Shown in pieces: positions 2,768 through 58,486 of a stretch of DNA of 64,000 bases. Below the pieces are notes generated by a model. It was given only the letters and a program-made list of their open reading frames with translations, searched no databases and was not told where the DNA came from. Position 1 is the first letter of the stretch, and every line of letters starts with the position of its first letter. The stretch comes from Coptis chinensis (lineage: Eukaryota > Streptophyta > Magnoliopsida > Ranunculales > Ranunculaceae), in the NCBI GenBank assembly GCA_015680905.1, contig CM027378.1, forward strand, positions 103,437,501 through 103,501,500. The letters run 5' to 3'. The position numbers were made by a program, and so were the translations under genes.

Positions 2768-5700
2768 ATGTCTGATTACGAGCAATTGCCAAGCGAGGCA
2801 GCAAATAATAATAAAAACAACAACCGCCTCGCTTCTCTCGACGTGTTTCGCGGCCTCTCTGTCTTTGTAATCTCTCTCTCTCTCTGATTAGCATGCACCA
2901 CATTTTTTATTCATTCACCTGCATTGATTATTTATTTCAGCTGATGATATTTGTTGACTATGGAGGCTCACTTATACCATTCATTGCTCATTCACCATGG
3001 AACGGTTTACACTTGGCGGATTTCGTTATGCCTTTCTTTCTTTTTATCGTTGGACTTTCTCTTGCACTTGTATATAAGGTACTATTTACTTTTTTATTTT
3101 TTTTTTTTTTATAAGTTCATATAGCGAGTTAAAAGTTTGATTATGATGTATCGATTGCAGAATGTAGAGAACAAAGTAGAGGCTACACGTAAGGCAGTTG
3201 TGAGGGCAATTCAACTCTTTGTTCTTGGAATTGTTCTTCAAGGTATTATTCTGTGTAACTTTTACTTGGTTTTTTTTTTATTGAAGTTTATTGTTTGCTT
3301 CTTCTATGCCCGAGTTTGAAGATATATGAACTTGTAAATACAATGCAAGCATGTAAAAAAAAAATCCACACAAACTATCCAAGATTGTACATAATCAATC
3401 GAAACAGTACACCCAACCAAAATTGTTAAATTTGAAAAGTGGGATTTTAGTGTATACATCTTAATTTTAGTGTAGCTTAAATGGAGATTTATGAAAATAT
3501 AAGATATATAACATGTTCTTATCTTAATTTTAGGTGGTTATTTTCATGGACTAAATTCCTTGACATTTGGCGTTGACATTGAACGTATACGATGGCTTGG
3601 CATTTTACAGGTTTCACAAATCAATATTAACTTGTAATCTTGAAATTTGAAACCAAGTAGTAGAGAAATATAGAAATATAGTTCTAAATTAATATACCAT
3701 CTTGTATGAGAAATATAAAAAAATTTAAGTTGCATTGACATGGATAGGTATGTCGGTGTCCGACACAGATACGAAGTGTCTGACATGGTGAAATATCAAA
3801 AATTGAGGTAAATCATATACAAAATGTGTCCGACACGGACACGTGGATACGTATCCGACACACATTTTTTTAAGAATATGGCGTGTCCATGTAACATAGA
3901 GAAAAATGGTTTGGAGATGCTGAAAAAATGGAATTTACCAGAGGAAGTGTTTCTAGAGGTTCATCCTTGAGGTTTTTCTAGTTCTGGCCATAGTGGTAGC
4001 CGAATTTGTTGGGTTTAATACCAATACCAATCAATTTCCACTACACAGATAATTCGCCTCGCTAAACAACTATTAACAACAGATAATAATAATGTAAAGC
4101 AGTAAAAACAAACCACAACACAAAGATATACCGTGGTTTGGCCAATGGTGCCTACTTCCACAAGAGTTAGTCCTTATATAAAGTGGGAAGGAAGATTACA
4201 ATCACTCCTTGCAGTTTCTCACCTTATTAGATCACTCCTCTCTCTTTATAGGGTTGTATCTCTGTAAATGTTATCTCTCAATCTTGATAGCTATCAAGAT
4301 TGGGTTTTCTCTGACTTTTGTGTTGTCTCTCGTGTGTTTGGTTTTGCCAAAAATCCAAACATATAGTGCCAAACTCGCGGTTCGCAAAAATAGAATCCTG
4401 CCAAAATAGGCATGGGCGCGGGGTGCGCTTGGACTTGTGTTGAAACGGGTGCGGGGCGCGCTCTTGCCTTGGACGATGTCCAGGCGCTTGAGCGCGTGGC
4501 ACGCTTCAAATTGGCTTGTGGAGGGCGCGTGGCGCGTTCTTGCCTTGGATGATGACCAGGCACTTTAGCGCGGGGCACGCTTCAGAATGGCTTGTGGAGG
4601 GCGCGGGGCGCACTCTTGCTTTTCCACACAAGCTGAACTGATTTCTCTCCTCTCCTCATGTGAGGGATAACTCCAACAGAATTAGCCTTGGAGCTGGCAA
4701 AATGCGGCGCTAGTTCTCGAGAGAATCTTATTGTTGCTAATGTAGTAGTGGAAGCATAGGCCTAGTCATTCGAAACCAACTTTAATGTTTTCTGCTAAAG
4801 ATGGTTTGTTAACCATTTTTTCTCTACAGTCTATACACAATCGATCCTTCGTTCTTTAGGGTCTTTGAAGGCTACTAGAGTCTTTTTTGTTGTTTCTTAC
4901 AAGGCCCAAAATATCGATATCGATGAATATATCGGTGTACCCAAAAACCGATATATATCGGATATATCGGATATTTCGGATATATCCATTTTTTTGGTAA
5001 CCAGTCCAAACTATTTAAAATATCGGAAATATTGGATATATCGGAAATATCGGAAATATATCGGAAATATCGGATATATATCAGATTTATATTTTAAAAT
5101 AGTCAAAAAGTCAACCGATATATATCGATTATATCGAAATATCGAAATATCGGGATTAAAATTTCCGGAAATTCGATATATATCGGGAAAAAAAGGGTTC
5201 TATATTCGGTGGATATATATCGGGAATATCGATGTCGGTGTACCAAAATACCGATATATATCGGCGATATATCGGATATATCGGCGATATTTTGGTCCAT
5301 GGTTTCTTATCCCAGTTGTTGCTGGCAAGGGCACTTAGAGGACAGATGGAACAGCTTCATGTGGCTGTCATTTTGCACGAGAAATATGTTTTTCCCTATG
5401 TTACATGGATACGCCATATTTTGAAAACAATCTGTGTCGCATTCATATCCACGTGGAGTGTAGGACACACCACGGACACATAATGCATGTGATAACCCCC
5501 AATTTTTTATATTTCGCCGTGCTAGGCACTTTGTATCTGTGTCGGATATGGACACACATATCTGTCTCAATACAACTTAGGTTTTTCTTTTTTCTAATGA
5601 ATGTGATATTTAAGGTTATAAACCAGGTGAACACAGAAGTACTTGCTGTAGTAAAGCTTTGAAAAAAATGTATTTAGTGGGATCCCAAATCTGGTCTACC

Positions 5701-16115: not shown

Positions 16116-17124
16116 TCAAAATGGAGCTGTTGAGGTTCTCTGGAGCATATGCCTCTTGGGTAGTTGAGCAGCAGCAGCTGCTGCTGCTAAATATACCTGC
16201 TCGCACAAACACATTGAGAATCACCAAAAGAAGATGCATGGAAAATAAAATTTGACTTAATTCCTATCTAGCTACTAAATTTTACCTGTTCTTGTTGTTT
16301 AAGCCTTTCATTCTCCAGTGTCAAACGTTCAACTTTATTTTCCAACTCATTCGTATAAGCCTGTTAATAGATAATTAAAACAAAAAGAAAAAAATCGGGA
16401 CAGAAAAAGAGAGATCAAATATAGAAGAAAGAAGCATGCGTACCTGTTTTCTAGATCTTGAACGGGCAGCAGACTCTCTGTTCTTGATCATTCTCTTACT
16501 TCTTCGATCTCCAACATTATCTTCAGATTCAGAATCTCTTTTCTTGCCAAATGGAGAGAATGCAGAACAAGGACCTAAAACATCAAAAGGAGAGTTAAAA
16601 GATGTGCCAAAGGAGGAAGCGACATCATTAGACTGGTTATCCAGTTGTGAGTGTAGTGGACCAAGAGTGTTAGAAGTGTTGTCCAAGTAATGAAACTCAG
16701 GTACAGAATTCAAGCATAATGCAGTTGGTGGGGTGGGAGTTGGTGAAGACCCAAAGTGGCGAAACTCATGGGTAGAGTTACTAGACCCTAAACTATCTCT
16801 GCTGCTAAATGGTCTTGCTAAGAACTCTTGAAGGTTATTGCCCCTAAAGGTGTTTGGGTTATAATGGTTATCACAGGAGTGGGGTTTGGGTGGAACCCTT
16901 CCCAATGCTTCTCTAGTAGGGTGATGATCTACTGATGAAAGACCAATGTCCTCCCAAACTTCTTCCATGGTTTTTGTTCTTGGGGTTTGTAAAGGAGATG
17001 AAGCTGAGAATGGAGATTGTGATTGATAAGAAGATGAAGATGAAGACTTTGAAAATGAAGAAGTTCTTTGGTTGCTATTATTTGTTGTGCTGAAGATGAT
17101 CTCCTCACCGCCTGATGACCACAT
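16116..17124 (-). CDS. FD: FD-like bZIP transcription factor
   Basis: Three exons on the minus strand, 17124-16444, 16360-16286 and 16196-16116, give 278 residues. It is a group A bZIP of the FD/FDP type: FD binds DNA in shoot-apex nuclei and joins FT through 14-3-3 proteins to switch on AP1-class floral genes. The order is serine-rich N-terminus, MEEVWEDIGLSS motif at about 53, NLQEFLARPF at about 96, FSPFGKKRDSES linker, basic region KRMIKNRESAARSRSRKQ (209-227; the invariant N-x7-R is intact), leucine zipper 228-252, a run of seven alanines, and C-terminal RTSTAPF. The last is the SAP motif; Thr275 corresponds to Thr282 of Arabidopsis FD, phosphorylated for 14-3-3 binding. Introns are 83 and 89 bp and split the zipper as in the family. 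Length fits (Arabidopsis FD 285). All key residues are present and it looks functional. Confidence 0.93.
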
Positions 17125-17210
17125 AGTTTGAGTCAGATATGCTTGACATGGGATGGGAACAAAGGAGAGGTGGGATTATAGATTTCAAAGAAGAAATGAA
17201 GAAAAAGGGC

Positions 17211-19272: not shown

Positions 19273-21051
19273 ATCATCTTCTCTCTCTCTCCCTCTAAAT
19301 GTGGAACCTAGTACGATATAAGTTACCTGTTGGACTGTTGGTGACTTGCATCCTCATGCTGTTCCACCAACTGTACATCTAGTTCAATCTGAACGATTCT
19401 TTCTCATTGAACAGCACATGTCTAACTTTACAAATTTTGCAAAATCTCAAACAGTTTGCAGAATTTAATTTCTTTTGTTCAGTTGGTTCTCGAGATACAA
19501 ACATACACTAGTATACCCCGTTGGCCGTTGCCTTGGCTTTGGGCCTTGGTTATATGTTTATGGATGCGGGGATGCCGATTTTATAACAAAATTATTGGGA
19601 AATTTCGGAATCCAATGGCACTAGTAGTAATTAGTTATTACTTATCACAAGTACGTTCCATGGCTTAAAAGTTATTAGCCTGGTATTATTTGATTTTTAG
19701 GTCGTCCCACCACTTTCTTTGTTGTGGAGCCACTGTGACTGGTCACTGATCCATCAAAGTTCATACGTACTGTACTAACTCATTGCTTTTGTGACAAATG
19801 CCTGAACAGAAACACCAATCAGTCACCCACCGACTATCTCTCTCTCTCTCATCTCTCTTAATTTGGTTCCTTTATTCACCACCGAAGACAATAGCAGAAG
19901 TCTATAGTCTTCAAGTACTTGCTTGGTTGCTTTTGAAAGTTCGGTGGGTCATACGTGTATATTTTTAGTGAATTTCAATTGGCCAAACGCAGCAAAATGT
20001 AGTACTTTCAGTGAGTGATTATGTCATCAATATCGATCATTCATTAGCCACCACTATAGTTTGTACTCGGTGAAGAGCTGAAGATGAGAATGCATACTGT
20101 ATTTGATCAGGCTTGGTTATATCATCCAATCCCGTGTCTCTTTTGTTGCCAAGTGGCACCCACTTTCCATCAATGTTTTTGGGCCCCCACATTACCGTAA
20201 TTCAGCTCAACCACATCTACAAACACTTGTGGCCAGATAAGAACGCCCACAACTGGCAAAACTTCTTGATCCTTAATTGGTGAAAATCACAAATCAAACA
20301 GGTTTTTGGTACGTAGATTTAAATTATTGGTTTCTACATGCGATTTATTATGGTGGTGTCGCAGAAGAATCAATAAGGTGCTTTGCTTGGTCGGGTATAG
20401 TAAAATATAACAGTCACATTATTGAAGAATACTGTTGCTCGAAAATACGTGGGGCGGTCTTATTTGTCTTTATTGAGGTGGCATGTATGCAACTCACAAA
20501 ATGGATTACCCCTTAGCCTATTATAAAGACTTGAGATCGACTTGAGCGCATTAGCAATTTTCAGTCTATTCAGCGCATTTTACATGTTTGCACAATTCGT
20601 TTGTGAAGTAGCCTGTACCCCCATGGCCCCATGACATTTTTTGCAAGTAGTGGTACTAGAGTGGTAGTGATCGAACTCCTTGTATGTAATCATGTTTTCG
20701 CTATATTTTGAGTTTTAACCCAAAATAGCAATTTGTAGAGAAACATTCTTTTTGGTTCAGTACATAACACTGTGACTGTATTTACAAAATAGCTCTAGTG
20801 TAATTCAGCTTGCTTTTAAACCAAGATAATGTGTACCATAGGAGAAGACACCAGTAAATTTGAACTACCTCGTGCCAGCGTACTACTAGATAGCTTGCTT
20901 CATAGTTCTTATGGAGTTTAAAATTGAGATTGTCTAAAAAGATGGTTTTCTTTCTTATTGTGGAAACCTTCCTTCTGGGGTAGAATAGATTTGAAAATGT
21001 ATGATGATAAAACCATGGCATGATACTCGATCATACCATGCGGCCCTTCGC
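19273..21051. other. Intergenic, nothing recognised
   Basis: AT-rich sequence between the 18454 element and the MTERF18 duplication. ORFs such as 20277-20516 show no family motifs. Confidence 0.4.
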
Positions 21052-21176
21052 CAGAGGTGGCAATTTTAAAAATGGCCCAAGCCAGAAAAAAACTTGGGCT
21101 TAGCATTCTTAGTAAAAACCCGGCCCGATGTGCTTGGCCCGAAAGGATTAGGGCCGGACCAGCCCCAATTGCCACC
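21052..21176. mobile_element. Short hAT-like MITE (GGCCCAAGCC / GGGCCGG words)
   Basis: Starts CAGAGGTGGCAATT and ends with AATTGCCACCTT, an inverted pair of the common plant hAT type. The interior repeats GGGC/GCCC words. A target duplication was not identified. Confidence 0.5.
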
Positions 21177-21607
21177 TTCTTTTTCTTTGGTATGACTTAT
21201 GAGTAATGACTGTCCTTGGAGTTCTGTTATTAGTTTTGGTCGGAGTTTTGTTATTAGGGCTGCTTGGATTGGGTTTAGATCTAACCTGAGCCCAACCCAA
21301 GTTCCTCAACTACTAAATTTGAGCCTGAAGGGCCAGAACCAAAATCCAGGTTCTACTTTTTGAACCGGGCTTGGGCAGATTTAGCTGCCAATTACTGTAG
21401 CCCAAGCCCAAACAGGGGTTGGTATCCATATCCAGTACCCACATTTTTGAGGACCAGAGACAACCATTTCTCCATTGAAGCAGCAGCAGCAGAAAAGAAA
21501 TGAAAGCTTAAAGTATTAAAGCATTACCTGCTCTTTCATTTTACTCAAATAAAGGTTCAGGTAACAGAACAAACCCCCTTTAAATTGACTGCACTGTAAA
21601 CTATTTA

Positions 21608-24600
21608 ATGAACCATTTACAGAAACTTAAATCACAATTTCTACTCAAATGGGTATCTTCAGTTTACCCTCAAACCCGCCTTAGAACATCAACTATTAAA
21701 CTTTCAATCTTGTCTGCGTCAGTTTACACTGCAAAGAATTCGACCTTTTATACTAGTAGAGCAGAAAATTGTGAAAAAGATCAAATTTTAGAGGAAATGA
21801 AAGTAGCCCATTGTAAACCTGGTCCAAAATACCATAGTAGTATAAGTAAGGCGGAAGCTCAAACGGCTCTCTTGGAGTATCTACATGTTACTAGAAACTT
21901 ACCTTTTACTGATGCTGAATACATGAGTAAAAACTCCCCACTCTTTATCAAGAATCTTTTAAAGAATGTCGAAGTTGGCCAGAAGATTAAGTGGTCACTT
22001 ATGAAGTTCTTTTGTTACCACCCCATTAATGAGTTTGAGCCTTTTTTTGAGAGCATGGGTTTGACAGGTTCTGAACTGGATTCGATTCTTCCTCAGGATT
22101 TGTTGTTTTTGAAAGATGATGGTTTGTTGCTTGAGAACTATCATGCTTTGTGTAATTATGGTGTGCCCCGTGGTATGATTGGGAAAATATATAGAGAAGC
22201 TAAGGAAGTTTTCAGGTATGATTACGGGGTTTTGCATTCAACACTTTACGGTTATAAAGATATGGGGTTGAGTCAGACTAGTGTTATTAAGGTTGTGGTT
22301 TCGAGCCCTTCTCTTTTGATTGGGGGTGTTAATGGAGACTTTAGAAAGGTGTTGGATATGTTTAGAAGTTTAGAGATTGATTTCGAGTGGATTGAGGAAT
22401 GCATATCTGATAATGATACTTATGATTGGAGCCAAGTGCTTGGGTTTCTCAACTTCGTATGTCGGTTGGATTACAGTAAAGAAGAGTTACGAGCATTGGT
22501 GAAAACGCATCCAGGACTGTTATTGGAAGGTTCAGGAAGAAACGCATTTCATCTGGTTAAAATTTTGTTGAAGTTGGGATTCACAGGGAAAGAGGTAGCC
22601 TCCTTGCTTCTGAGATTACCTCAAATTCAAGTTGGAACCTTTGCGAAGAATTTGGACCGTTGCTTGAGTTTTCTGATGCACATTGAAATGGATTCTGAAG
22701 ACATTGCAAGAATTGTGCGTGCGCACACGGTAATGCTTGGGACTTTATATCTAAAGAAAGCCAATACCGTACAAAATGAATTGAGTATTGGGAGAACGAG
22801 ACTATGTAAAATTGTAAAAGGGAATCCATATCAGTTAAAGAATTGGGCCCTGGGAATGAAATTGGAACCATTGCGCAACTCAGCGGAGAACCAGAGTTCA
22901 CTAATGCAGAAGAAGGAGTTCCTTTTAAAATATGATGGTTTGTTGCTTGAGAACTATCATGCTTTGTGTAATTATGGCGTGCCCCGTGGTATGATTGGGA
23001 AAATATATAGAGAAGCTAAGGAAGTTTTCAGCTATGATTACGGGGTTTTGCGTTCAACACTTTACAGTTATAAAGATATGGGGTTGAGTCAGACTAGTGT
23101 TATTAAAGTTGTGGTTTCGAGCCCTTCTCTTTTGATTGGGGGTGTTAATGGAGACTTTAGAAAGGTGTTGGATATGTTTAGAAGTTTAGAGATTGATTTC
23201 GAGTGGATTGAGGAATGCATATCTGATAATGATACTTATGATTGGAGCCAAGTGCTTGGGTTTCTCAACTTCGTCTGTCGGTTGGATTACAGTAAAGAAG
23301 AGTTACGAGCATTGGTGAAAACGCATCCAGGACTGTTATTGGAAGGTTCAGGAAGAAACGCATTTCATCTGGTTAAAATTTTGGTGAAGTTGGGATTCAC
23401 AGGGAAAGAGGTAGCCTCCTTGCTTCTGAGATTACCTCAAATTCAAGTTGGAACCTTTGCGAAGAATTTGGACCGTTGCTTGAGTTTTCTGATGCACATT
23501 GAAATGGATTCTGAAGACATTGCAAGAATTGTGCGTGCGCACACGGTAATGCTTGGGACTTTATATCTAAAGAAAGCCAACACCGTACTAACTGAATTGA
23601 GTATTGGGAGAACGAAACTATGTAAAATTGTAAAAGGGAATCCATATCAGTTAAAGAATTGGGCCCTGGGAATGAAATTGGAACCATTGCGCAACTCAGC
23701 GGAGAACCAGAGTTCACTAATGCAGAAGGAGTTCCTTTTAAAAGATGATGATTTGTTGCTTGAGAACTATCATGCTTTGTGTAATTATGGCGTGCCCCGT
23801 GGTATGATTGGGAAAATATATAGAGAAGCTAAGGAAGTTTTCAGGTATGATTACGGGGTTTTGCATTCAACGCTTTACAGTTATAAAGATATGGGGTTGA
23901 GTCAGACTAGTGTTATTAAGGTTGTGGTTTCGAGCCCTTCTCTTTTGATTGGGGGTGTTAATGGAGACTTTAGAAAGGTGTTGGATATGTTTAGAAGTTT
24001 AGAGATTGATTTCGAGTGGATTGAGGAATGCATATCTGATAATGATACTTATGATTGGAGCCAAGTGCTTGGGTTTCTCAACTTCGTCTGTCAGTTGGAT
24101 TACAGTAAAGAAGAGTTACGAGCATTGGTGAAAACGCATCCAGGACTGTTATTGGAAGGTTCAGGAAGAAACGCATTTCATCTGATTAAAATTTTGTTGA
24201 AGTTGGGATTCACAGGGAAAGAGGTAGCCTCCTTGCTTCTGAGATTACCTCAAATTCAAGTTGGAACCTTTGCGAAGAATTTGGACCGTTGCTTGAGTTT
24301 TCTGATGCACATTGAAATGGATTCTGAAGACATTGCAAAGATTGTACGTGCACACACGGTAATGCTTGGGACTTTTCCTGTGAAAAAAGTTAGCACCGTA
24401 CAATCGCAATTGAGTATTGGGACAACGAGACTATGTAAAATTGTAAAAGGGAATCCATATCAGTTAAAGAATTGGTCCCTGGGAATGAAATTGGAACCAT
24501 TGCGCAACTCAGCGGAGAACCAGAGTTCACTAATGCAGAAGAAGGAGTTCCTTTTAAACTTGGGTTACATTGACAACTCGGATGATCTGAATAAAGCACT

Positions 24601-25006
24601 CAAGGCTTTTCGAGGAAAAGGAGGGGAACTCCAGGGTAGATTTGATTGTCTCTTGAAGGCTGGTGTGGACAGCAAAGACATAATTGAGATGGTTAAACTT
24701 GTGCCTAAGATTCTGAACCATAGAACGGATGTGCTTGAGCGAAAAATAGATTTTCTTCTAAACGGGTGTTGTTATCCTGTTTCGTGTTTGGTGGGATATC
24801 CGTCATTAATCACTTTAAATTCTGAGAGGGTTAGGCTCAGGCTTTTGATGTACAGTTGGCTCAGGGATGAAGGAGTAAAATCGCCCCATTTATCTCCAAA
24901 CTCTTACATGACTTGCTCAGATAAGATTTTTATTAAGCGCTTTGTAAATCGTCACCCTGGAGGGCCTGAAGTTTGGGAGAGTATTAAGAAAGAACATCGC
25001 CTATAG
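21608..25006 (+). CDS. MTERF18: MTERF18 (SHOT1)-like organellar mTERF protein with triplicated core
   Basis: A single 1132-residue frame with no intron, like Arabidopsis MTERF18/SHOT1 (At3g60400, about 560 residues), a mitochondrial mTERF protein linked to heat tolerance. mTERF proteins are helical-repeat nucleic-acid binders acting on organelle transcripts. Order: MNHLQKLK start and basic, Ser/Thr-rich presequence (about 1-45), conserved LLEYLHVTRNL and MSKNSPLFIKNLL, then a block of about 272 residues present three times (about 169-440, 441-712, 713-984), each beginning GLLLENYHALCNYGV and ending with KNWALGMKLEPLRN. The C-terminal part follows once (about 985-1132: FRGKGGELQGRFDCLLKAG, HPGGPEVWES). 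Units are 816, 813 and 816 bp, nearly identical and all in frame; unit 2 lacks one Lys codon at its end. The start is the only upstream ATG and matches the family's MTHLPKL. Either a true expanded protein or a misassembled near-identical repeat. Confidence 0.88.
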   Translation: MNHLQKLKSQFLLKWVSSVYPQTRLRTSTIKLSILSASVYTAKNSTFYTSRAENCEKDQILEEMKVAHCKPGPKYHSSISKAEAQTALLEYLHVTRNLPFTDAEYMSKNSPLFIKNLLKNVEVGQKIKWSLMKFFCYHPINEFEPFFESMGLTGSELDSILPQDLLFLKDDGLLLENYHALCNYGVPRGMIGKIYREAKEVFRYDYGVLHSTLYGYKDMGLSQTSVIKVVVSSPSLLIGGVNGDFRKVLDMFRSLEIDFEWIEECISDNDTYDWSQVLGFLNFVCRLDYSKEELRALVKTHPGLLLEGSGRNAFHLVKILLKLGFTGKEVASLLLRLPQIQVGTFAKNLDRCLSFLMHIEMDSEDIARIVRAHTVMLGTLYLKKANTVQNELSIGRTRLCKIVKGNPYQLKNWALGMKLEPLRNSAENQSSLMQKKEFLLKYDGLLLENYHALCNYGVPRGMIGKIYREAKEVFSYDYGVLRSTLYSYKDMGLSQTSVIKVVVSSPSLLIGGVNGDFRKVLDMFRSLEIDFEWIEECISDNDTYDWSQVLGFLNFVCRLDYSKEELRALVKTHPGLLLEGSGRNAFHLVKILVKLGFTGKEVASLLLRLPQIQVGTFAKNLDRCLSFLMHIEMDSEDIARIVRAHTVMLGTLYLKKANTVLTELSIGRTKLCKIVKGNPYQLKNWALGMKLEPLRNSAENQSSLMQKEFLLKDDDLLLENYHALCNYGVPRGMIGKIYREAKEVFRYDYGVLHSTLYSYKDMGLSQTSVIKVVVSSPSLLIGGVNGDFRKVLDMFRSLEIDFEWIEECISDNDTYDWSQVLGFLNFVCQLDYSKEELRALVKTHPGLLLEGSGRNAFHLIKILLKLGFTGKEVASLLLRLPQIQVGTFAKNLDRCLSFLMHIEMDSEDIAKIVRAHTVMLGTFPVKKVSTVQSQLSIGTTRLCKIVKGNPYQLKNWSLGMKLEPLRNSAENQSSLMQKKEFLLNLGYIDNSDDLNKALKAFRGKGGELQGRFDCLLKAGVDSKDIIEMVKLVPKILNHRTDVLERKIDFLLNGCCYPVSCLVGYPSLITLNSERVRLRLLMYSWLRDEGVKSPHLSPNSYMTCSDKIFIKRFVNRHPGGPEVWESIKKEHRL
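22112..24556 (+). repeat. Three-copy in-frame tandem repeat within MTERF18-like gene
   Basis: Units start at about 22112, 22928 and 23741 (816, 813 and about 816 bp). Both internal junctions join the end of a unit (GAGTTCCTTTTAAA) to the start motif (GAAAGATGATGG-like). The two partner sites share the near-match TTTTGAAA / TTTTAAAC, suggesting recombination at short microhomology. Differences between units are few, for example VFRYDYGVLHSTLYG, VFSYDYGVLRSTLYS and VFRYDYGVLHSTLYS. Confidence 0.93.
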
Positions 25007-26121
25007 TGCCTCAACAATCTATTGCTTTTACAGTTTAGATCATCTTTGCATACGCTGACAATGTAAAATTGGTTCTAGGAGGAAAGAATGCGAGCACTGT
25101 TTTTTTTCTTCAGCATGCTCAGGTAAGGACTAATGTATTCTCTATCTATTTAGAGTCCCTGAGGTTTTGAAAGTTACCATTTATTATCTTCTAGTTAACA
25201 ACTTGTTAAATCCGAGGTTTGTATTTTGTCCTCTATATGTTTAGGCATTTCTTGCTCATTATGATGAAAAACCTCAGGTTTGAATTCTTTTCTCTCTTTC
25301 TTCGACGTACAGGTCGCCTTGTCCAACAGTGCGTCTCCTTCAATTTAATATATGGTATGACATTGATAATTTACTGTTGGCGGTTTGTTTCATCCCAGCA
25401 TTTCAGCTGGGGCAATATTTTAGTGATTTGTCTACAGCTATCCCACGGCAATGAGCTAAATTTTATTTTAGAAAGTATAATATTAGAAACGGGATTCCTC
25501 ACTGCAATGAGTATACTTATATATTAAAAAGCTTGCACTGTGATCAACAGTAATAGTTAAGGACGTTATGCACGTTATGCTTATGCTTAAGCATATCATT
25601 TTCATTGCAGATCCATATATGACACTTCCACACTTCACCGGTGTAAGGATATTATGCATCAAATCTGATGGCTATTTTTGGTCAACACCAAGTTGGCAGT
25701 TGGGGGAACTTGGGAGTTCTTCAATTGGTGAACAAATAAGTATGTTTGGTACTGTTAAAGAAATTGGCTTGTCTAGAAATGACCTCACAAGGATGCACCG
25801 CCTGTATCATGGGAATTCTAAATTCTTTTTATGCCTCTTTATCTAAATCATGAGCCACCTCAATTCTTCCGAAACCCCTTTTTTTTTTTTGGAATATTTA
25901 GAGGGTTAAGGCAGACCTACACCAGTTACATCGAAGGACCGTAGCTCGAAGACTTACATTACCCGAAGGCTTATCAACCCTGGAGGGACACTAGCCCGAA
26001 GGCTTACATTGCCCGGCTTACATTGCCCAAGGCATGCACCATTTTGAGTAGACCCAACCGCTTCCACCTTGCCCATGAAAACTTGTTTTCGCTCCTTGGT
26101 CCACCTATCACAGCAGCATCC
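25007..26121. other. 3' flank of MTERF18-like gene with inserted sequence
   Basis: The first about 120 bp match the flank of the paralogue (30503-30620). From about 25130 the sequence is absent from copy B. ORFs at 25219-25527 and 25568-25846 (reading, for example, FGTVKEIGLSRNDLTRMHRL) look exon-like in places but I do not recognise them. At 25876-26060 there is a T-run followed by repeats of GGCTTACATTGCCC, which resembles the 3' part of the SINE at 26589-26741. Confidence 0.35.
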
Positions 26122-26129
26122 TTCTATGA

Positions 26130-26580
26130 AGCACCGATACGTCCCTAAGGGTGAAGTATCCGTGTCCGACACAAATACGCCCCGATACGCAATTTGGAGT
26201 ATCCTATTTTATAATTAATTTTTTAATTTCCGACACGCGGGGGACAGTAATCTCACACATACAAGAATTTTTTTTGGAACTTCAAAAAAAAAAAAACAAA
26301 TGAAATAAAATCCAAGTTAAGAAGAGATGCAAGAGAAGAAAGATGAAGTGAATCCAAGTTATACATGTAAGTTGTTGCTTAATGTGTTTGAATTGGTCAT
26401 TTTATGAAGTAGAATTGCCAATTTTAATTTGAATTTGGTGAAAAATGTTCAATTATATAATATTTATATATATATTATTCAAACGTGTTCATGACGTATC
26501 CGTGTCCTATATTTTTGAAAAATGCCGTGTCCGCGTATCCGTGTCGTGTCATATCCATGTCGCGTAACGGTATCTGTGCT
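26130..26580. mobile_element. hAT-like MITE built of GTATCCGTGTCCGACAC words
   Basis: Left end AGCACCGATACG and right end, read inverted, AGCACAGATACCG, flanked by TTCTATGA (26122-26129) and TTCTAGGC (26581-26588), a decayed 8-bp duplication (6/8). The interior near both ends repeats CGTGTCC, GACACG and GTATCCGTG words. It belongs to the same word family as the long-TIR element in the acetyltransferase intron. Present only in duplication copy A. Confidence 0.6.
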
Positions 26581-26741: not shown

Positions 26742-28469
26742 GTTCTTTTGAAACTTTCTTGCAGTATTCCAGGTGCCTTGTCTTAAGTTTGTAGTGGTGA
26801 ACACTGACCTATCTTCTCTTCACCAAGTTGTATCCTTGTAATGTATGTTACGTTGGGCCACCTATTTTTTTTTTTTTTTCATCTAATGAGTATATTGCTC
26901 TTAATGGAAAACTGACATTCTTGGACATTTTGGAGAAGCTAGTCTGAGTACCTTGATTGATGTTATGCAGAGCTAGCACTAGGGTTTATGCAAGATGCAT
27001 TATACCAAAATCGAATAGTTAACATCATTGGTAGCACGGGTGCACACATTTTACTTTTGCCATCTGGGTCATTTTCACCTAGCTATTTAACTTGTAGATG
27101 TGCCTAGATTAAATTGGGTAATCATTGAACTTTACCTCGGTTAAGCTTGTACTATATAGGAAATGTGACTGGTTGATGATTGAATTTCTACTTGCCACTT
27201 CTACCATTCTTCTTGTTCAGAGTGTCTGCTTAAAAGTAGGATCATGCTCTTGCATCCAGAAAAATGAAAGTTCTTCCAAAAGGTGAGATTGCCGTGGCAT
27301 GCCGTCCAAATGTTCGCCCCTATTATTGCCAGGTATGTATACTGTTATTATTATATGCATGCTGTTGATCTACTGAACTAGATTAATCAATAATCTATTA
27401 CTGCCTTACCGGCAATTGAGATGAAGACGGGTTTTCTTTTTGAATTTTGTCTATACCTATTTATTATATTTTGCATAAGGTAACGTGTTTAGTAGATGCA
27501 TTGCTTCTCATGAGAATGCTTAAATATTGTTGATCAAATTCAATCTTGAAAACTGAAGGGAGAATTTGGCGAGTGCTTGACAAAACCATTCATTAAAAGG
27601 CCACGTATATGGCGGTCCTCTGAGTTATGTAGTACTTTTCAGGTACAAATTTTATATTGTTTGTTTTTTTAATAAAAAATGGGTTGGCTGAGTTTGAAAA
27701 TGACTAAACAATTGAATTGGAAACACAAGTTATTTATGTCTGGGTTTATCTTTAGTACATATTCGTTGACCTTTATCTCAAAACAAGTTTCCTCATCTCA
27801 GTTTCTTGATCACTGGTGGCGGGATTACCATTTAATTTTCCTCTCGCAAGAACGCAAGCTGAAGTTTGCGATATTCTCAAGGGGGGGGGGAGGGGGGACT
27901 GCCCTCTTGGAGTCCGTTGCTACAGTAATTATGATCCAAGCTTTGCAATGATCTGCAGAGCTGGTCAAATGCTCAAGCTGCACCACTGATACTCATTCCT
28001 TAGATCATAATGTAATGTTGGAGGGAGCCTACACAGGGCCCTCGCTGATGTAAAACACTAAAACGTACTTTTATTGACGCTATTTATAGTCACCCTTAAC
28101 AAAAAACAAAGGTAAAAGTGGGTGGTTGGCTGGTATAATAGTTTTGTTAGGACTTTCATGTGTTCATTCCGGGCTTGTCAATGTTGCCATTGCTTGTAAT
28201 CTCGAGGATTTTTGGAGATATGAAAGCAAAGTCGTATAGAAGTCTTTTAATGTTAACACAGAATTTCAGGCCATCTATAGCAATAATAAGAAGAAAAAAA
28301 ATCCCGAGTAAACACACAGCTATTTAAAATGGCATCATGCTCTAATGCTCTATTATGGTTAAATGACCTCCAAATACTTGTGTCGCTGTTCCAAGTGAGT
28401 ACCGTGCTATAGTAGTAAAGTAAAGATAACTTCTTGTTCTCGAATCTCAAATCTGGTAAGTAGTAGCTA
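26742..28469. other. Distal part of duplication copy A, gene remnants only
   Basis: Blocks near 27220-27335, 27545-27640 and 27895-27985 match copy B. On the minus strand at about 27900-27950 a short reading ITVATDSKRAV parallels ITIATDSKRVAHTI in copy B (RNase H-like remnant). A G-run (about 27880-27897) marks a low-complexity spot. No intact gene seen. Confidence 0.4.
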
Positions 28470-28795
28470 CTATGTTAGACCCGGGTTGAGATCTTACCTG
28501 AGCCCAACCCAAATTCTTAAACGTTTAATAATCAAGCCCAAACCAACCTAACACTGGGTACGGTGTTGGGTCCGTAATCGGGCTTGGGCTTTGTTAGTTG
28601 TCCATACTCTTATACCAAGCCCAACCAAGGGGTTGGTTAGAGAGCGTTTGAAAAATCATCTGGAGACCATCGAAGTAGAAGAAGAAGAAATAAATCCCAG
28701 TAAAAAATTATCTTCAAGCTCTACTTCAAGGTAACAAAATAAACCCCACATTTATTAAACTATTCAACTTTTACTACTACTATAAAAGATAAAAG

Positions 28796-30500
28796 ATGAA
28801 CCATTTGAAGAAACTCAAATGGGTTTGTTATTCAAATTTCTCTCAAAAACCACCTTACATCATCATCAAACTATTTTACATCAAGTTACTATACAAGTAG
28901 AGCTGGAATTGCTGAAAAATATAAATATTGTAAACCTGTATTATATCCAAAATACCATAGTAGTACAAGTAAGGCAGAAGCTCAAACTGCTCTCTTGGAG
29001 TATCTACATGTTACTAGAAACTTACCTTTTACTGATGCTAAATACATGAGTAAAAACTCCCCACTCTTTATCAAGAATCTTTTAAAGAATGTCGAAGTTG
29101 GGCAGAAGATTAAGTGGTCACTTATGAAGTTCTTTTGTTACCACCCCATTAATGAGTTTGAGCCTTTTTTTGAGAGCATGGGTTTGACAGGTTCTGAACT
29201 GGATTCGATTCTTCCTCGGGATTTGTTGTGCTTGAAAGATGATGGTTTGTTGCTTGAGAACTATCATGCTTTGTGTAATTATGGCGTGTCCCGTGGTATG
29301 ATTGGGAAAATATATAGAGAAGCTAAGGAAGTTTTCAGCTATGATTACGGGGTTTTGCGTTCAACGCTTTACAGTTATAAAGATATGGGGTTGAGTCAGA
29401 CTAGTGTTATCAAGGTTGTGGTTTCGAGCCCTTCTCTTTTGATTGGGGGTGTTAATGGAGACTTTAGAAAGGTGTTGGATATGTTTAGAAGTTTAGAGAT
29501 TGATTTCGAGTGGATTGAGGAATGCCTATCTGATAATGATACTTATGATTGGAGCCAAGTGCTTGGGTTTCTCAACTTCATTTGTCGGTTGGATTACAGT
29601 AAAGAAGAGTTACGAGCATTGGTGAAAACGCATCCAGGACTGTTATTGGAAGGTTCAGGAAGAAACGCATTTCATCTGGTTAAAATTTTGTTGAAGTTGG
29701 GATCCACGGGGCAAGAGGTAGCCTCCTTGCTTCTGAGATTACCTCAAATTCAAGTTGGTACCTTTGTGAAGAATTTGGTCCGTTGCTTGATTTTTCTGAT
29801 GCGCATTGAAATGGATTCTGAAGACATAGCAAGAATTGTGCGTGCACACACGGTAATGCTTGGGACTTTATATCTAAAGAAAGCCAACACTGTACAAACT
29901 GAATTGAGTATCGGGTCGAAGAGACTACGTAAAATCATAAAAGGGGATCCATATCGGTTAAAGAATTGGGCTCTGGGAATGAAATTGGAACCATTGCGCA
30001 ACTCAGGGGAGAACCAGGGAACACGGTTGCAGAAGAAGGAGTTCTTGTTAAACTTAGGTTTCATTGAGAACTCGGATGGACTGGAAAAAGCACTCAAGGT
30101 TATTCGAGGAAAAGGAGGGGAGCTCCAGGGGCGATTTGATTGTCTCTTGAAAGCTGGTCTGGACAGCAAAGACGTAATTGAGATAGTTAAACGCGCACCT
30201 GAGATTCTGAACCAAACAACGGATGTGCTTGAGCAAAAAATAGATTTTCTTGTAAATGGGTTGCGTTACCCTGCTTCGTATTTGGTGGAATTCCCAAAAT
30301 ATCTCAGTTATACTATTGAGAGGGTTGAGCTTAGGTTTTCAATGTACAGTTGGCTCAGGGATCAAGGAGTAAAATCGCCCCAGTTATCTCTACACACTTA
30401 CATTACTTACACAGATGAAATGTTTATTAGGCGATTAGTAAATCATCACCCTAGAGGGCCTGAAGTTTGGGAGAATATGAAGAGCAAACATTGCCTATAG
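28796..30500 (+). CDS. MTERF18 (SHOT1)-like paralogue, N-terminus disrupted
   Basis: Tandem paralogue of the gene at 21608, with one copy of the core block and about 90% or better residue identity to it by eye. The main frame is open from 28809 to the stop at 30498-30500 and includes LLEYLHVTRNLPFTDAKYMS, GLLLENYHALCNYGVSRG, LKNWALGMKLEPLRN and C-terminal HPRGPEVWENMK. The equivalent of the paralogue's start ATG (28796) lies in another frame and ends at TAG 28898-28900 after 34 codons, because the presequence region has gained or lost bases; the main frame has TGA at 28806-28808. The first ATG in the main frame is 29046, giving 484 residues without a mitochondrial presequence. So it may be a pseudogene, a protein with changed targeting, or a gene with an unrecognised 5' exon. 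The body is intact and looks under constraint. Confidence 0.7.
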
Positions 30501-30502
30501 TG

Positions 30503-31377
30503 TATCAACAATCTATTTCTTGTACAGTTTGACGATCTTTGCATAACTGACATTGTAAAATTGGTCCAACGGTGAATGCAAGCTCTGTTGTTTTTCTTGA
30601 GCATGCTCAGGTAGGGTCTAATGTATGTACTTTACATCATTTTAGAAGCCCTGGGGGTTTGGAGGAGTTAACTATTTATATTGGGTGGATGAAATTGGCT
30701 AATCATTTAACTGTACCTCCATTCTTGTTGTAGCTTGTACTTTATACTTATTGAGGAAATGTGACTAACGTTTGCTTGTTGATTTTCTACTTTCCACTGC
30801 TACCAGTCTGCTTGTTCAGAGTGTTTGCTTGAAAGTTGGATCATGCTTTTGCATTCTGAAAGATGGAAGTTCTTCCAGAAGGTGAGATTGCCGTGAAATG
30901 TAGTCCCAGTATTCTGTCCTATCATTGCTAGGTTTGCCCATGTAGTTTCATTATCGTAAGCGTGCTGTTCATCTAGTGAGCCAGATATATCACTAGCAGT
31001 TGAGATGAATACAGGCTTTATATTCCAATTTTGTCGGTACCAGTTTATGATGTTTTACTTAGGGGTAATGAGTATATAAGAGATGTATCACTTCTCATGA
31101 GCCCTGATGATTATATATTTCTTTATCAGATTCAACCATTGATGAAAACTGAAGAGACTGAATCGGGTGAAATGGAAAGGATTAGTGCGTGCCAAACCCT
31201 TCATTCTGAAGCCAAGTATATGGCAGTCCTCAGTTATGTTGTTCGTCTCTTTTATTATCTGGTTGTTTATGTTTGAAAACAAGTTTCCCTTGGCTGGGAT
31301 TTTTGTATTATTTTGCATATAATAATAAGAATTACATGAGTTGCATCTGAGATTCAGTACATCCAGTTCATCATTCT
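30503..31377. other. 3' flank of the MTERF18 paralogue
   Basis: Homologous in blocks to the copy A flank. The ORF at 31031-31276 has no recognised family. Both copies keep the phrase GTTCTTCCA(A/G)AAGGTGAGATTGCCGTG (27266-27300, 30869-30895), a candidate remnant of an adjacent duplicated exon or untranslated region. Confidence 0.35.
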
Positions 31378-45577: not shown

Positions 45578-48169
45578 TATTTTTGGTTGGCTGCACCAAG
45601 GCCAACACTGAGATTGTCGGGCCCGAGGTAACGTCTTAAAATGGGCCCAAAAAATCCCATATACAAAAGCCCAACCCAAAATAATTTGTCAACTTAGGAA
45701 ATTATTAATTTCTAATACCGATTGTGATGGAAGAAATTAGGTAGAATGTTGGCGAAGTTTCTTCTACGCGTGGAAGGATTATGAAGGATTATGTTTTTTT
45801 TAGCGAAAAAATAAGAGACTTGTGCCTGAGCAATTGCCAAAGGGCCATGCCTTAAACCACAAAACAATAGTACAAAATCTGGATGGGACCCTTTAATTGA
45901 GGTAAAACTTGGGCCTGAGCAATTGCCTAGGCCGTTGCCTTGATGGCCTTACCCCAGGCCACGACTTCAACTCTTAAGTATCCAAAGTCTAAACTCAATA
46001 TATAAGTACCCATCACTCTAACAAAGTCCAATGAGGACTAGGGAAAGAGAACAAATTACCTGCGACACTATTCAAAAAAAAATAATGAAAAATAAAAATA
46101 ATAAAGAAAAAAAGAAAAACAACAACAACCCAAAATACATTAATAGTTTTTTTTTTTTGCGTAACTAAAGCACATTGTTAAGCAACTGCCTATAAACCTT
46201 GAAAACTAAATTGTAGGGAATAGCGGTTGGAATGCCAATTAATCAGAATCTAGGGCTGGCTCACCCCTATAGAAGAATAAGCAACTGTTTAGGCCCCAAC
46301 AGTCCAAATGGCCACCAACTCAGCACATACTAGTTTGGATTTCATTTTTCAATTTTATTATTTTTAGAATAGTTACAAATTTATATAATAACATTTGAAA
46401 AAATATTAAGGTTCTGTTTTGCAGTAACAATTAGTGTTGTATAACGTGGTACTTGATCATATTTGGAGTATCCAATTCTTGTAGTTAATGTCCCATAGAT
46501 GATAAATGTAGAAAGTGTTTGGTTCCATCTCTCTTCTCCCACCAAAATTGTCCCACCCTTCAAAACCAAAACCAAAATCCCAACATTCAATTAAACCAAA
46601 ATCTTCAATTAAACCAAAATCAAAATCCCAACCTTCAATTAAACCAAAATCAGATTATTGCAAGCTTCACAACTAATTGCAAAAACAACTCCAAACATAC
46701 TTCTATATTCTTCAAAAAAAAAATCAAAAAGATAAATCACATCAACTTCTTTTAGAGCAACAATAACCAAATAAAATTGGGTTTAATGTATGTGAGAATA
46801 TGGATGAATTCCAACTTTAAATCTTTTGAGAAATTAAGAAATGTTGTGTAGAGAGAGACGAAGGAGGTGAAAATGGAGGTTTTTTTTTATTATTTTTTTT
46901 ATTTTGTATGATGAAAAATGGAGGAGGTGAAGACTAGATGCTTAATGCTTTAAGTGCTTGCATGGTGGAGGAGATAGGAATGGAGGGAGATGAGCGCGCG
47001 CGTGAAGAAAAAAAGCTTTTTGTTGCAACTCTTGATCTAATTTACACAATGAATATTGTTATTGCACCTAAATTAAGAGATAACGTTATACTGATTATTG
47101 GATTTTTTTTGTATTCGTTATTCATAAGTTGTGGCCTCGTATTTAGTAAATAGACTGGACCAAACAACTAAAGAACTTATCAAGGGCCTTATTTATTATA
47201 TAAGCTATCCAATCCATGCCACCAAACATGCCCTAAATGCAATTATATTCTCAAACAAATATTTCGTTTTTCTCTAATAAATAACTTTTAATTTATCATG
47301 CAAAAAGTGAGTGTAATCAATGGTAGTTAAAAAACTTTTGGAACGTCGCCTAGGGCCACAAATGGCTTGAGCCGCTCCTCCCATAATCCTAACAGACTTT
47401 CAAGTATCAGGTCCAGTAAATTGTGAAAAATAACTTCCAAAATTATCAGTATTGAGAATATCTCAAGAATTAGGTGTTGTGCAAATTGACTTGATTCGTC
47501 TTTGCCATGGCTGTTTCGGTAAGCCCGACGACAGACAATTTGGTATAGAACAAGATGGGAAATATCAGTATATCACGCTTTCACGCATCACTCATGCACT
47601 GCTCAAATAATACTTTTTGTATTTTACGCTGTATTGGGCAAACAGCAGCATATTTGGGCCTTGTTAAGGAGCTTTGGTCAGGCCCAATTAATATTCTGTG
47701 TGTTGTGACTCTGTGTAGCCCATCACTTCCAGGTTTTATGCTATTTGAGTATTTGGCCCAGTTTTAGTAGGTAAGCGATATTTCTTCAGTTGGGCCTGCC
47801 GAAAGCACAGCTGCTATGCTTCGGCAACACAAACCGATCAAGTTGCAGTTGTTTGTGATACCATGTAAGAGCATCAGAATTCCTGTACATACATACAAAG
47901 AAAATACTATCTCTAGTCCTTCTCCTAATTTTGAATTTTCACCAAAATTTTCGTCTCACTCATAATTTAATTGTAGACTGACCCGGATCTGGGTGTTTCC
48001 ACTGAAGCCAGAGCCCAATAACGAAGTTAAAATGACTCGGATTTGGGCTAATCAGCTAGGCTCCATTTCGGTGCTGAAGGAATGTTTATTACTGTAACTG
48101 TACCTTCGGGACCTCAATTACGATGTATGATGTATCCTCTTAAAATGTAATACTCTGGAATGGCAAGGC
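45578..48169. other. Intergenic, repeat-derived in part
   Basis: GGCCCA/TGGGCC-rich phrases (45590-46000, 47650-47800) and tandem AAACCAAAATC(C/A)AATT-like repeats at 46560-46650 suggest decayed repeats. No gene recognised. ORFs at 46381-47153 are low complexity. Confidence 0.4.
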
Positions 48170-52475: not shown

Positions 52476-52941
52476 GCGGAGGGCACGTCAGGTGAATCTA
52501 TTGATGCCCTTGCAAAAGTCGACATAGTCAAACAAAGAATGGAAGCAACTTATGAAACACTTCAGGTAATTTATAATGTTGGTTCCTGAGTTCTCTCCGA
52601 TTTGTGGATTTTGTCTTATTGTGGAATTATAAACAGGATGCTGCAGGGTTGACTCAATTAAGTGCTAGTGTGGAGGATGTGTTTGCCAGTGGAGATCTTC
52701 CACAAGTTGCAGAAACTTTGGCCAACATGAGACATTGCTTGTCTGCTATAGGTGAGGTAATTTTTTTGGATTTATTATGTTTTGTGTAGAAAGGTATTAG
52801 GCTTCCTAAGGTCTGCTGATATGGTTCTTGAGTTTCTATGTGTATTAGGTTGCAGAGTTTGCGAATGTTAGAAAGCAACTTGAGGTGTTAGAAGATAGAC
52901 TAGAAGAAATGGTTCAACCTCGTCTATCCGAAGCTTTATCT
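52476..52941 (+). pseudogene. COG7: COG7 fragment (captured, introns kept)
   Basis: Three exons with GT-AG borders, 52476-52565, 52637-52756 and 52849-52941, read GESIDALAKVDIVKQRMEAT, DAAGLTQLSASVEDVFASGD with ETLANMRHCLSAIGE, and VAEFANVRKQLEVLEDRLEE ending VQPRLSEALS. This is the N-terminal region of conserved oligomeric Golgi complex subunit 7, a Golgi tethering subunit. The frame is intact across all three, but the first exon and all later exons are missing. After SEALS the frame runs into unrelated sequence to 53088. Confidence 0.9.
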
Positions 52942-53088
52942 CTCTCTGCCCACACACACTCTGACTGGGAGAAACCACGACGGAATTGTAGCACCTTCCA
53001 CCATAATATACTGGAGGGACTTCGCTTCCAATTTGGATCTTGGCTTCCAAACGCATCCAAGCGATTGGTACGTACTGGTAGAAAGGTA
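52942..53088. other. Unidentified sequence fused to the COG7 fragment
   Basis: The COG7 frame continues as THSDWEKPRRNCSTFHHN to RTGRK and then a GT. In the reverse direction the same bases read RLEAKIQIGSEVPPVYYGGR then CYNSVVVSPS, which looks more protein-like and could be a captured exon of another gene in antisense. No family assigned. Confidence 0.25.
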
Positions 53089-54090
53089 TGGATACTTTTT
53101 TTTTTAAAAGTAATTATTTCAAGAAATTTTGTGGTAAAGTTGCAACCTTTTGGTTCCGAACTGAAGTTTAAACTTTCAATTCCATTTTTGTCTTCATGGT
53201 TTTGAATGTGGAGGAGAATGGAAGCGATTGGATGGAATTCCATCGTCTGTGGAAGAAATGAGTTTTTTTATTGGGTGTTTGGGTGGTTATAGATTGTATG
53301 TGAAAGTGTGTTCAGTGGATTTTGTTGCAAATTATTTGTTGTAATTAGTATTCTAAGAGTCACATGCATTTTGTGCTTAATTTTTTTGTGCGTGTTATGT
53401 TGGGTGAGTGTTTTCTTGCTATTTGTTTTTTCTAGATTTCCTTGCTTAGAATTCATGAAATTTAATAAATGCAAGTAGATATCTTAAACTGGATGGAACG
53501 TTTGCAGAAATGGTACTGGATAACATATTATTGGCTATGTTCACAACCTGAATATCTGTCAAATTAGTGAGTATCTCTTGTGGGAAGTACCGAGAGAATG
53601 AGTTATATTATAAAAAGATTACGCGAAGACGACGACATTTTGACAAGGAGTATGGGATAGTACCGTTGAGTGACTTTGAACGGAGAGAATGTTTACGTAA
53701 GTTTGTGAGTTTGGAGAGGTGAGGAGTGAGGGGGCCTGAAAGTTGAAGATGAGGTAAACGGAGTTCATGGACTTAAGTATTGTAACGTACATGAAATGCC
53801 ACGCCAGTCACATGGTGCAAAAGGTGTGGTTGAGTCCCAACCATCTAGTGAACCAATGGGTCGTGGAGGTTTTGTTCAGCTAATAATATAGGAGATTCTA
53901 AAAGGCCTCATCAACTTGATCCTTGGTCCATCATCTTTTCAGTTAGTCTGGTATATCATGCATGTGTACCCCATTTACAATATAATGAAGGAAAACATAA
54001 ACTTCTCCAATTTAGATTTTCCCTTCAATTGTGAGTGAAATGAGGTTCTATAGTTAGTACTGTACTTCTTATAGCAAGTAGTATTAATAA
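53089..54090. other. CACTA interior, nothing recognised
   Basis: AT/GT-rich sequence between COG7 and PDI fragments; no further gene fragment identified. Confidence 0.35.
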
Positions 54091-56374: not shown

Positions 56375-56545
56375 AGTTTAAAACGCGATTTTTTCAAAAT
56401 ATCGCGATATATACAGTTTTTACGTTTAAATCGCGTTTCAAACGTTTTAAACGCGATATTTTGAAAAACACGGGTTCAAAATGCATACAAGACGCCTTGG
56501 CAATTTAACGGGTTTTAAACGCGTTTTATTCAAAAAAACGCCGTA
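56375..56545. mobile_element. Word-repeat element (GTTTTAAACGCG)
   Basis: About 170 bp dominated by iterations of GTTTTAAACGCG and its complement CGCGTTTAAAAC, plus TATCGCGATATAT. This is the same architecture as the other word-repeat MITEs here. A candidate right end, inverted, reads CAAGTACGGCGTTTTTTTG. Boundaries and target duplication are uncertain. Confidence 0.45.
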
Positions 56546-56556
56546 CTTGGTGACAA

Positions 56557-56781
56557 TTGACTGCAGTCATACCGCCTTGTAGAAACCTTCCGTCCATCAA
56601 TCACATTTTTGCCGAAGATTGATGGGTGCCCATCCTTACGGAAGTTTGTTAATCTTGTCACATTCAACAGTATCACTGGTACCTTCATTTTATGAATAAC
56701 AACCTCGTCATCCCTACTCAAGCTCCTCTTCCTCTGATATGCAGGGCTTCGGCTCCTAAAAGGACTGCCACTCTTGAACAT
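56557..56781 (-). pseudogene. TBL/PMR5-family fragment joined to an RS-rich piece
   Basis: The frame 56781 to 56557 reads FRSRSPAYQRKRSLSRDDE (RS-rich, unassigned), then VPVILLNVTRLTNFRKDGHP, SIFGK and KVSTRRYDCS. The second part matches the C-terminal region of TRICHOME BIREFRINGENCE-LIKE proteins (N-x-T-x-L-x-x-x-RKDGHPS, then DCSHWCLPG), which O-acetylate cell-wall polymers in the Golgi. Here it breaks off after DCSQ, before the catalytic D-x-x-H (DCSHWCLPG) is completed. Only one partial exon is present. Confidence 0.6.
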
Positions 56782-58486
56782 GGAGAACTTTCGAAAAAGG
56801 TTTTGGGTTTTTGAGTGCTAGGAATTTTTTTTAGGGTCGGCGGAAGAGAAAAGAAGAAAGGTTTTGGTTTTTTAAATCGCGGGGCTGTTTTTCGATTTAG
56901 GGCCAGTTTTTTTCTCCCCCTTTTTGTAATCCCGGGGTATAATGAGGTAAAATATTAATAAATTTCGATTCTTTATTGATTTTCTTAAATGAAAAATTTT
57001 ATAAAATTTTAAGTTGGATCTAAGTTGGTTTGACTAGTAAAATTATGTTTTTCAATATATTTCGTGGTATTTGTTTTGATTAAAGAATGTTTTTTCAATA
57101 TATTTCGTTTGTTTTTTATAGAAAAGTATACTTAAAAGATGATCTTTACACAATTTTGGATGTTGGGTATGTGTAACTATGCATTAGTTTATTGAAGGTA
57201 GAAGTTTATGTTATTTTGAAACTAGCTATGAGGTACTAAGGGGAATGATGGGGTTTTATTGGATTTGTGCGAGTGGGGTGTCGGGGCATGAGGTATTGAT
57301 TGGTTCTTCATGCTGTCGATTCGTGTGAAGTATGTAATATATCTTTGAAAACATAATGTAGGCATGTAGATCTCAGATTGTAGAATGTACCTGATTATAA
57401 GAATCCCAATGCAAGAGATGTGTGTTTTTTGTGAAAAATGAATTGCCTGCTAGCATTCCTCTGGGGGAATATAGTACAATGAGATTTTAAGCTTCAACTA
57501 ATTTCGATTTTTTGTGTTGGAACTTGGAACCAATGAAGCTTTGATTTGTGTCTTGAGACTCCACCTCTTTCAAATAGTTCTTTAGTAAAGTATTCCCATT
57601 ATGGGATATTTGTTAAATACCTAACAAATTGTTTAAAAACTAGTTTTCCGGCTATTATGTAATCTGAGTTTTCTTCCACAGAATTTGAAGACTCAAAGCT
57701 CTGTACAATTCGCTTGTCTTCATATAGCCCAACTGGTATGGAATATTTTGTAACTTAATAAATCATTTATTTTCCTTGGTGTTAGTAATCATCTTCAATG
57801 CATTTAAGCTTGCTTTACTAGGGACAAGCTTTTACATTGAATTTCCTATTTTAACTTAGAAGTTAGTTCAAATCATAGAAGACATGTTAAAGATTTGTTG
57901 CAAACTTTTTAAATTTTGAACTTCTATTTGGCAGGTCAATATGTGACTGGAGCGGTAGAATAATTTGAACAATTGCAACAACAGTTGAGGATGTCATGTT
58001 TGTGTATAAGTTCTTTTTGTGTATGATTCTCTTTTACATTGAACCGTGTTAGTCATTACCACCATCTTTTTTGTGATTCAACATGGATGTCAAGGGGTTA
58101 GTCAAATGTGATCTCAGAACCATTATATTTCTGGTGTTGGCTTGGTTTTTGCAGCAACACATTTTCATTGTGATTTAGGTGATGGGTTGATTGTTGCAAT
58201 ATTAAGTTTTCTATCTTGCGATAACAGGTATACTATTTGTCATTAAGACTTTTACGACATTTCCTTTATTATATATCTTCTCTATGGTTTAACACTTGAA
58301 TAGGGGTTTTAAGCTTTTAGAACTTCATGTGTGTTGTTTATTTCTATGTCTTGTATTCTTTTGCTTGTACCTGGTGTTGGGATTGCATGTGTAGGTGTTG
58401 TGTGAACATCTAGCAGTAAGTGTACTTGTAGGGATTTTGAGGAAAAATTGTGGATGCCATTCATTTTTTGTAGGATTAGCTGGTCT
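56782..58486. other. CACTA interior, nothing recognised
   Basis: Long AT-rich stretch without usable ORFs or repeats that I could delimit. Confidence 0.35.

Follow-up and report, generated by a model that had tools for sequence, protein, structure and literature searches.

An mTERF-family gene of Coptis chinensis with its core tripled in frame, next to a single-core sister gene

The locus described here raises three connected questions: whether an mTERF gene whose core stands three times in one open frame is real, how the copies could have arisen with the frame preserved, and whether the resulting protein would do anything new.

Gene structure and domain plan

The gene g1 (21608..25006, +) lies in a window of 64 kb, by which we mean the whole stretch of DNA that was analysed, and runs from ATG to stop over 1132 codons without interruption, 3420 bases being open from stop to stop. 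The first-pass annotation had described three blocks of 816, 813 and 816 bp inside this frame, and both the open reading frame and the block alignment bear this out: block 1 occupies 22097..22912 (+; 272 codons), block 2 occupies 22913..23725 (+; 271 codons, with one AAG codon missing at its end) and block 3 occupies 23726..24541 (+; 272 codons), and a repeat search gave block spacings of 816 and 813 bp. They are preceded by a single-copy N-terminal region (21608..22096, +; 163 codons), which alone has no Pfam match, and followed by a single-copy C-terminal half (24542..25006, +, stop included; 154 codons). Compared as in-frame blocks, blocks 1 and 2 are identical at 794/813 positions (97.7%), blocks 2 and 3 at 784/813 (96.4%) and blocks 1 and 3 at 782/816 (95.8%), and only one in-frame indel separates the three. 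This triple repeat exceeds chance by far. In block 1 the coding frame is the sole open one, each of the other five carrying 11 to 24 stops. The protein had also been put at about twice the length expected without the extra blocks, which agrees with the count: 1132 minus 543 gives 589 residues, and the frame of the neighbouring gene g2 has 563 codons. What that description overlooked, while right about the triple block, is this single-core sister in the same window.

The assignment to the mTERF family holds for the whole and for its parts. In a Pfam profile search, the complete protein reached 177.8 bits against PF02536 (E 3.3e-52, in five stretches; gathering cut-off 23.1) and, taken alone, block 1 (48.9 bits, E 5.5e-13), block 2 (53.8 bits, E 1.8e-14), block 3 (49.0 bits, E 5.2e-13) and the C-terminal half (41.9 bits, E 7.7e-11) all scored above the same cut-off. 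The profile is 314 positions long; each block covers only its first part (positions 2-137 in blocks 1 and 3, and 2-138 in block 2), and positions 217-313 are present once, in the C-terminal half. The plan of g1 is, in this order, a leader with the N-terminal region, the first mTERF half three times and the second half once. The suggestion that the extra blocks could serve as several recognition modules does not survive this comparison, because the repeated unit is the N-terminal part of the profile only, with a single C-terminal half behind the three blocks. Weak Pfam matches in g1 to CagL, the Cdc6 lid and ribosomal S4 were below their cut-offs and were taken as chance.

We file g1 simply as mTERF; the narrower label mTERF18/SHOT1 (reference gene At3g60400), given in the first-pass annotation, is a putative one. 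With the plant mitochondrial mTERF18/SHOT1 and MTERF18-like proteins, g1 shares the mTERF domain and a leader of composition fit for an organelle: its first 50 residues contain no Asp or Glu and seven Lys or Arg, which is suggestive only of a transit peptide. It differs from them in having three cores and 1132 residues, which places it outside the usual mTERF18/SHOT1 form (one core, about 560-600 residues). Human MTERF1, MTERF3 and MTERF4, with solved structures, are far shorter. A profile made from g2 and the g1 pieces matched human MTERF3 (3m66) at E 1.2e-08 by way of the C-terminal part, and this was the sole PDB sequence match at E up to 5. One scan of viral_contigs for relatives of the 1132-residue protein gave 13 pattern-matching stretches, and one scan of genome_contigs for relatives of g2 gave 59; none of these stretches encoded a relative.

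Site II elements, with the motif TGGGCY, often precede nuclear genes whose products go to organelles. Of the 59 copies of this motif in the whole 64 kb, five lie in the 600 bp upstream of g1 (21008..21607) and four in the 600 bp upstream of g2 (28194-28793); as many occur in the 600-bp bins starting at 47401 (five) and 45601 (four). Elsewhere in the window there are a tRNA-Glu gene (2456-2529), an open frame (4799-5335) rich in YRKY/ISDISD-like repeats that is probably simple-sequence DNA, a PC-esterase fragment above the cut-off (56533-56817), and weak matches below the cut-off to bZIP (16378-17175) and COG7 (52849-53202). The recognisable pieces among these would be in keeping with nuclear DNA of a plant.

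Joints, copy-specific changes and the neighbouring gene

The two places where one block passes into the next are informative about the origin of the repeat. Joint 1 (22913..22939, +) leads from the block end GAGTTCCTTTTAAAA into the block start TATGATGGT, in which the T is read as a later change from G, and joint 2 (23726..23752, +) leads from GAGTTCCTTTTAAAA into GATGATGAT at a breakpoint identical to that of joint 1. The joint sequences are GAGTTCCTTTTAAAATATGATGG and GAGTTCCTTTTAAAAGATGATGA, respectively; the natural core start (22106-22122) is TTTTTGAAAGATGATGG and the natural core end is GAGTTCCTTTTAAACTTGGG. Barring later single changes, both joints are the same end-to-start fusion, in which the two sides share 2 bp (AA).

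Genome assemblies are generally weak at long, nearly identical tandem blocks, and g1 might have been produced by the wrong chaining of copies from two haplotypes, from g2 or from other paralogues. Such chaining needs a long overlap, however, and the end and the start of a block share just 2 bp at the joint. The joints also differ from each other, block 2 lacks one codon, and every block has changes of its own. On the alignment of the blocks with g2, leaving aside 7 joint-derived columns at the block starts, the private differences are 5 in block 1, 5 plus the missing codon in block 2, and 19 in block 3; two columns pair block 2 with g2, three pair block 3 with g2, and 33 are private to g2. Outside the joints, 34 sites vary among the blocks of g1. 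Because the blocks bear such copy-specific changes, we hold a pure assembly artefact to be decidedly unlikely. That a joint exists is better secured than how many blocks there are, which could be two, three or more.

Twelve of the 19 private changes of block 3 are packed into 32 bp, in a patch at 24376..24407 (+) where LYLKKANTVQNEL of block 1 becomes FPVKKVSTVQSQL. The first-pass annotation had called the differences between blocks mostly conservative, which fails for block 3 on account of this clustering. In 20,000 random placements there was no case of 12 changes within 32 bp, the largest group being 7. The patch suggests a gene conversion, the probable donor being a further paralogue outside the window.

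The sister gene g2 (28809..30500, +) was located by tblastn and blastn within the window and starts 3.8 kb downstream of g1. Its frame has no stop between 28809 and 30497 (563 codons stop to stop), and the first in-frame Met is at 29046. Both genes are of the same family and have the same order of parts; g2 differs in having one core, 92-95% identical to those of g1 (94.7% with block 1, 94.0% with block 2 and 92.4% with block 3), and a leader out of frame, since its ATG at 28796 is in a different frame from the rest, one that is closed after 34 codons. As assembled, g2 has lost its leader, and it is possible that we are dealing with a pseudogene, a shortened or leaderless gene, or a sequence error.

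The DNA similarity between the two genes spans 28927 to 30679 in g2, with aligned pieces from 21810 to 25184 in g1, and it is uneven. In steps of 60 bp, the two genes are 98% identical across the N-terminal flank (four steps, 21857-22096); the values for block 1 are 93-100% over its first 660 bp and 81-95% beyond, and those for the C-terminal part are 68-90%. Ks takes the values 0.035 (N-terminal flank), 0.079 (block 1 with g2) and 0.153 (C-terminal part). We read the fall in identity from 5' to 3' as partial gene conversion that would have kept the 5' parts alike. Outside the genes, the segments 27107-27633 and 30688-31242 are 70% identical; the latter follows g2 directly, and some 2 kb separate the former from g1. 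It would thus seem that an insertion of about 1.9 kb took place downstream of g1, or a loss of that size downstream of g2.

The simplest history of g1 would be one duplication and one unequal crossing-over. In a first step, a break would have fused the core end CCTTTTAAA to the core start AAAGATGATGG, the two overlapping by 2 bp, and two in-frame cores would have resulted; in a second step, unequal crossing-over would have turned two cores into three. Both the three copies and the preserved frame would be explained in this way, because the breakpoint is common to both joints. Subsequently, the blocks diverged by 2-4%, and block 3 presumably took its patch from another copy, while gene conversion may have held g1 and g2 alike at the 5' side as they drifted apart at the 3' side. 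Transposon capture was discarded as the cause of the repeat: there are no inverted repeats of at least 60 bp in 20500-26500, and the repeat is restricted to the coding core.

Selection and frame keeping

The open state of all three copies had previously been taken to indicate either selection or extreme recency, an argument that turns out to be weak. The frame needed to be right only once, with a chance of 1 in 3, and crossing-over copies it without new risk; therefore the in-frame state would by itself be a weak sign of either. For codons 10-271 of the aligned blocks, the block pairs have Ka/Ks values of 0.61 (1 with 2), 0.49 (1 with 3) and 0.70 (2 with 3); g2 gives 0.57 with block 1, 0.59 with block 2 and 0.69 with block 3. 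The one-sided P for an excess of silent changes goes from 0.05 to 0.32 across these comparisons, and no block pair is clearly below 1. The probability that 35 random changes create no stop is 0.14-0.24 (transition weights 1 to 3), so the lack of stops in the blocks alone is unremarkable. As to recency, the silent divergence between blocks is 0.020-0.055, and the tripling therefore need not be extremely recent.

The Ka/Ks values and the stop probability would fit a tripled gene that is unimportant, a near-neutral or decaying copy whose frame is still open as the event is young and a few dozen changes rarely hit a stop. The broken leader of the adjoining g2 points in the same direction, and so does the comparison of the C-terminal parts (g1 24542-25003 with g2 30036-30497), where Ka/Ks is 1.32 on 77 changes (60.5 amino-acid-changing and 16.5 silent), a value not clearly above 1 (P 0.27). 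Against such a decay, the frame is open over its whole length from stop to stop with a single in-frame indel among the blocks, and Ka/Ks falls to 0.23 between blocks 1 and 3 in codons 10-214, before the block-3 patch, and to 0.32 in the N-terminal flank of g1 and g2, on ten and four changes respectively. Moreover, when the 33 changes of g2 are counted (68 in all), the probability of no stop drops to 0.02-0.06, and this stop-free family frame gives a mild hint that the frame may be kept. We regard the near-neutral copy as possible, and hold to it only tentatively. The Ka/Ks comparisons among the block pairs and with g2 gave evidence neither that the added blocks are constrained nor that selection has been positive.

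What we consider probable is that g1 is a real and fairly recent intragenic tandem duplication within a small tandem mTERF array, and that its product would still be an ordinary nucleic-acid binder in which the extra blocks are tolerated.

Possible function and relation to known mTERF genes

If it is made, the g1 product would be a basic, organelle-directed, all-helical mTERF of 129 kDa, with an N-terminal superhelix half about three times the usual length and one normal C-terminal half. The structure models are poor, that of g1 too much so for a continuous solenoid to be recognised in it. The 1132-residue chain folded alone gave a mean pLDDT of 39.8, every residue being below 70, and the model of g2, for which the three g1 pieces were used as alignment, gave a mean of 50.8, with block means of 63-86 in the last 120 residues or so; at these low scores, both consist of helices without strands. 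In Foldseek, the g2 model found 3m66 (MTERF3) first and a chain of an MTERF4-bound mitoribosome entry second (E 0.026 and 0.030; TM 0.19-0.38), with no match at E 0.001 or better, a weak result because the g2 model itself is poor. With the 1132-residue model there was no mTERF among the best 50 of 590 matches, and those listed at E 0.001 or better were two, both designed proteins; its matches (designed helical proteins, transportin, FANCI and similar ones) are of the kind that a poor all-helical model would be expected to give in any case, and we left them aside. Judged by eye, the helix register may be kept at the joints, where the block end QKKEFLLK replaces the QDLLFLKDD pattern of the natural start; the peptides in the joint regions are EFLLKYDGLLL and EFLLKDDDLLL.

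A gain of binding length from the extra blocks is possible. By analogy with expanded restorer-like PPR or mTERF genes, the extended helical array might cover more organelle DNA or RNA, or hold several such stretches at once. The mTERF proteins are described as helical-repeat nucleic-acid binders (PMC7909791), and one mTERF clade of cereals is implicated in fertility restoration, with evolutionary patterns like those of restorer PPR genes (PMC7759465); g1 and g2 likewise stand in tandem and show signs of gene conversion, the only features that they share with the cereal clade. On the other hand, the C-terminal half is unrepeated in g1 and each block has a computed charge of only +2 to +4 at pH 7. 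We consider a gain of function of this kind unlikely. Quite unlikely, in our view, is the more specific proposal of a working mTERF whose N-terminal superhelix half, tripled to some 20 mTERF-type units by a visual count over the three cores, would recognise a longer site in organelle DNA or RNA or wrap around it for more than one turn. Of the ways in which g1 could work, the likeliest would be as an ordinary organelle nucleic-acid binder of the mTERF type with tolerated extra helical units.

As for the known proteins, two papers place mTERF18/SHOT1 in mitochondria (PMC7909791; PMC6982079), and a review states that mTERF18 interacts with ATAD3A and that both are suggested to be necessary for nucleoid organisation (PMC10419812). 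Tandem duplication of mTERF genes is reported or suggested for Arabidopsis chromosome 1 (PMC3471360), barley (PMC8319850), capsicum (PMC6982079) and tomato (PMC10421145), and also for maize and grape; in what these sources describe, the copies are whole genes, whereas the tripling of g1 lies inside one gene. Family surveys give lengths of 105-632 residues in barley (PMC8319850), 202-1222 in tomato (PMC10421145), 266-606 in Salvia and 212-747 in spinach; the maize and grape texts consulted state none. The longest tomato member, SLmTERF20 (1222 residues), has an aliphatic index of 38 (PMC10421145) and in this is unlike the leucine-rich g1 protein, the comparison being one of published length and index; the capsicum text gives 1971 "residues", which does not fit the 67.82 kDa that it lists as the largest mass (PMC6982079). 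A search aimed at internal duplication in mTERF genes, and the texts consulted, yielded no description of an intragenic tripling.

Most likely, on the sequence at hand, g1 is a true oddity that is simply explained by ordinary recombination beside its single-core sister, and any new activity of the longer protein is hypothetical. Should that protein be produced, g1 would amount to a natural experiment, asking if a helical mTERF array can be extended block by block and still keep or gain binding. The question has so far been put mostly to PPR, PUF and TAL repeats; and if the tripled array does bind a longer site, g1 would be natural proof that mTERF arrays lengthen by whole blocks, as PPR arrays do. 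If the long protein is not made, the locus would show that tandem mTERF arrays generate odd gene models through unequal exchange, which gene-family surveys should flag.
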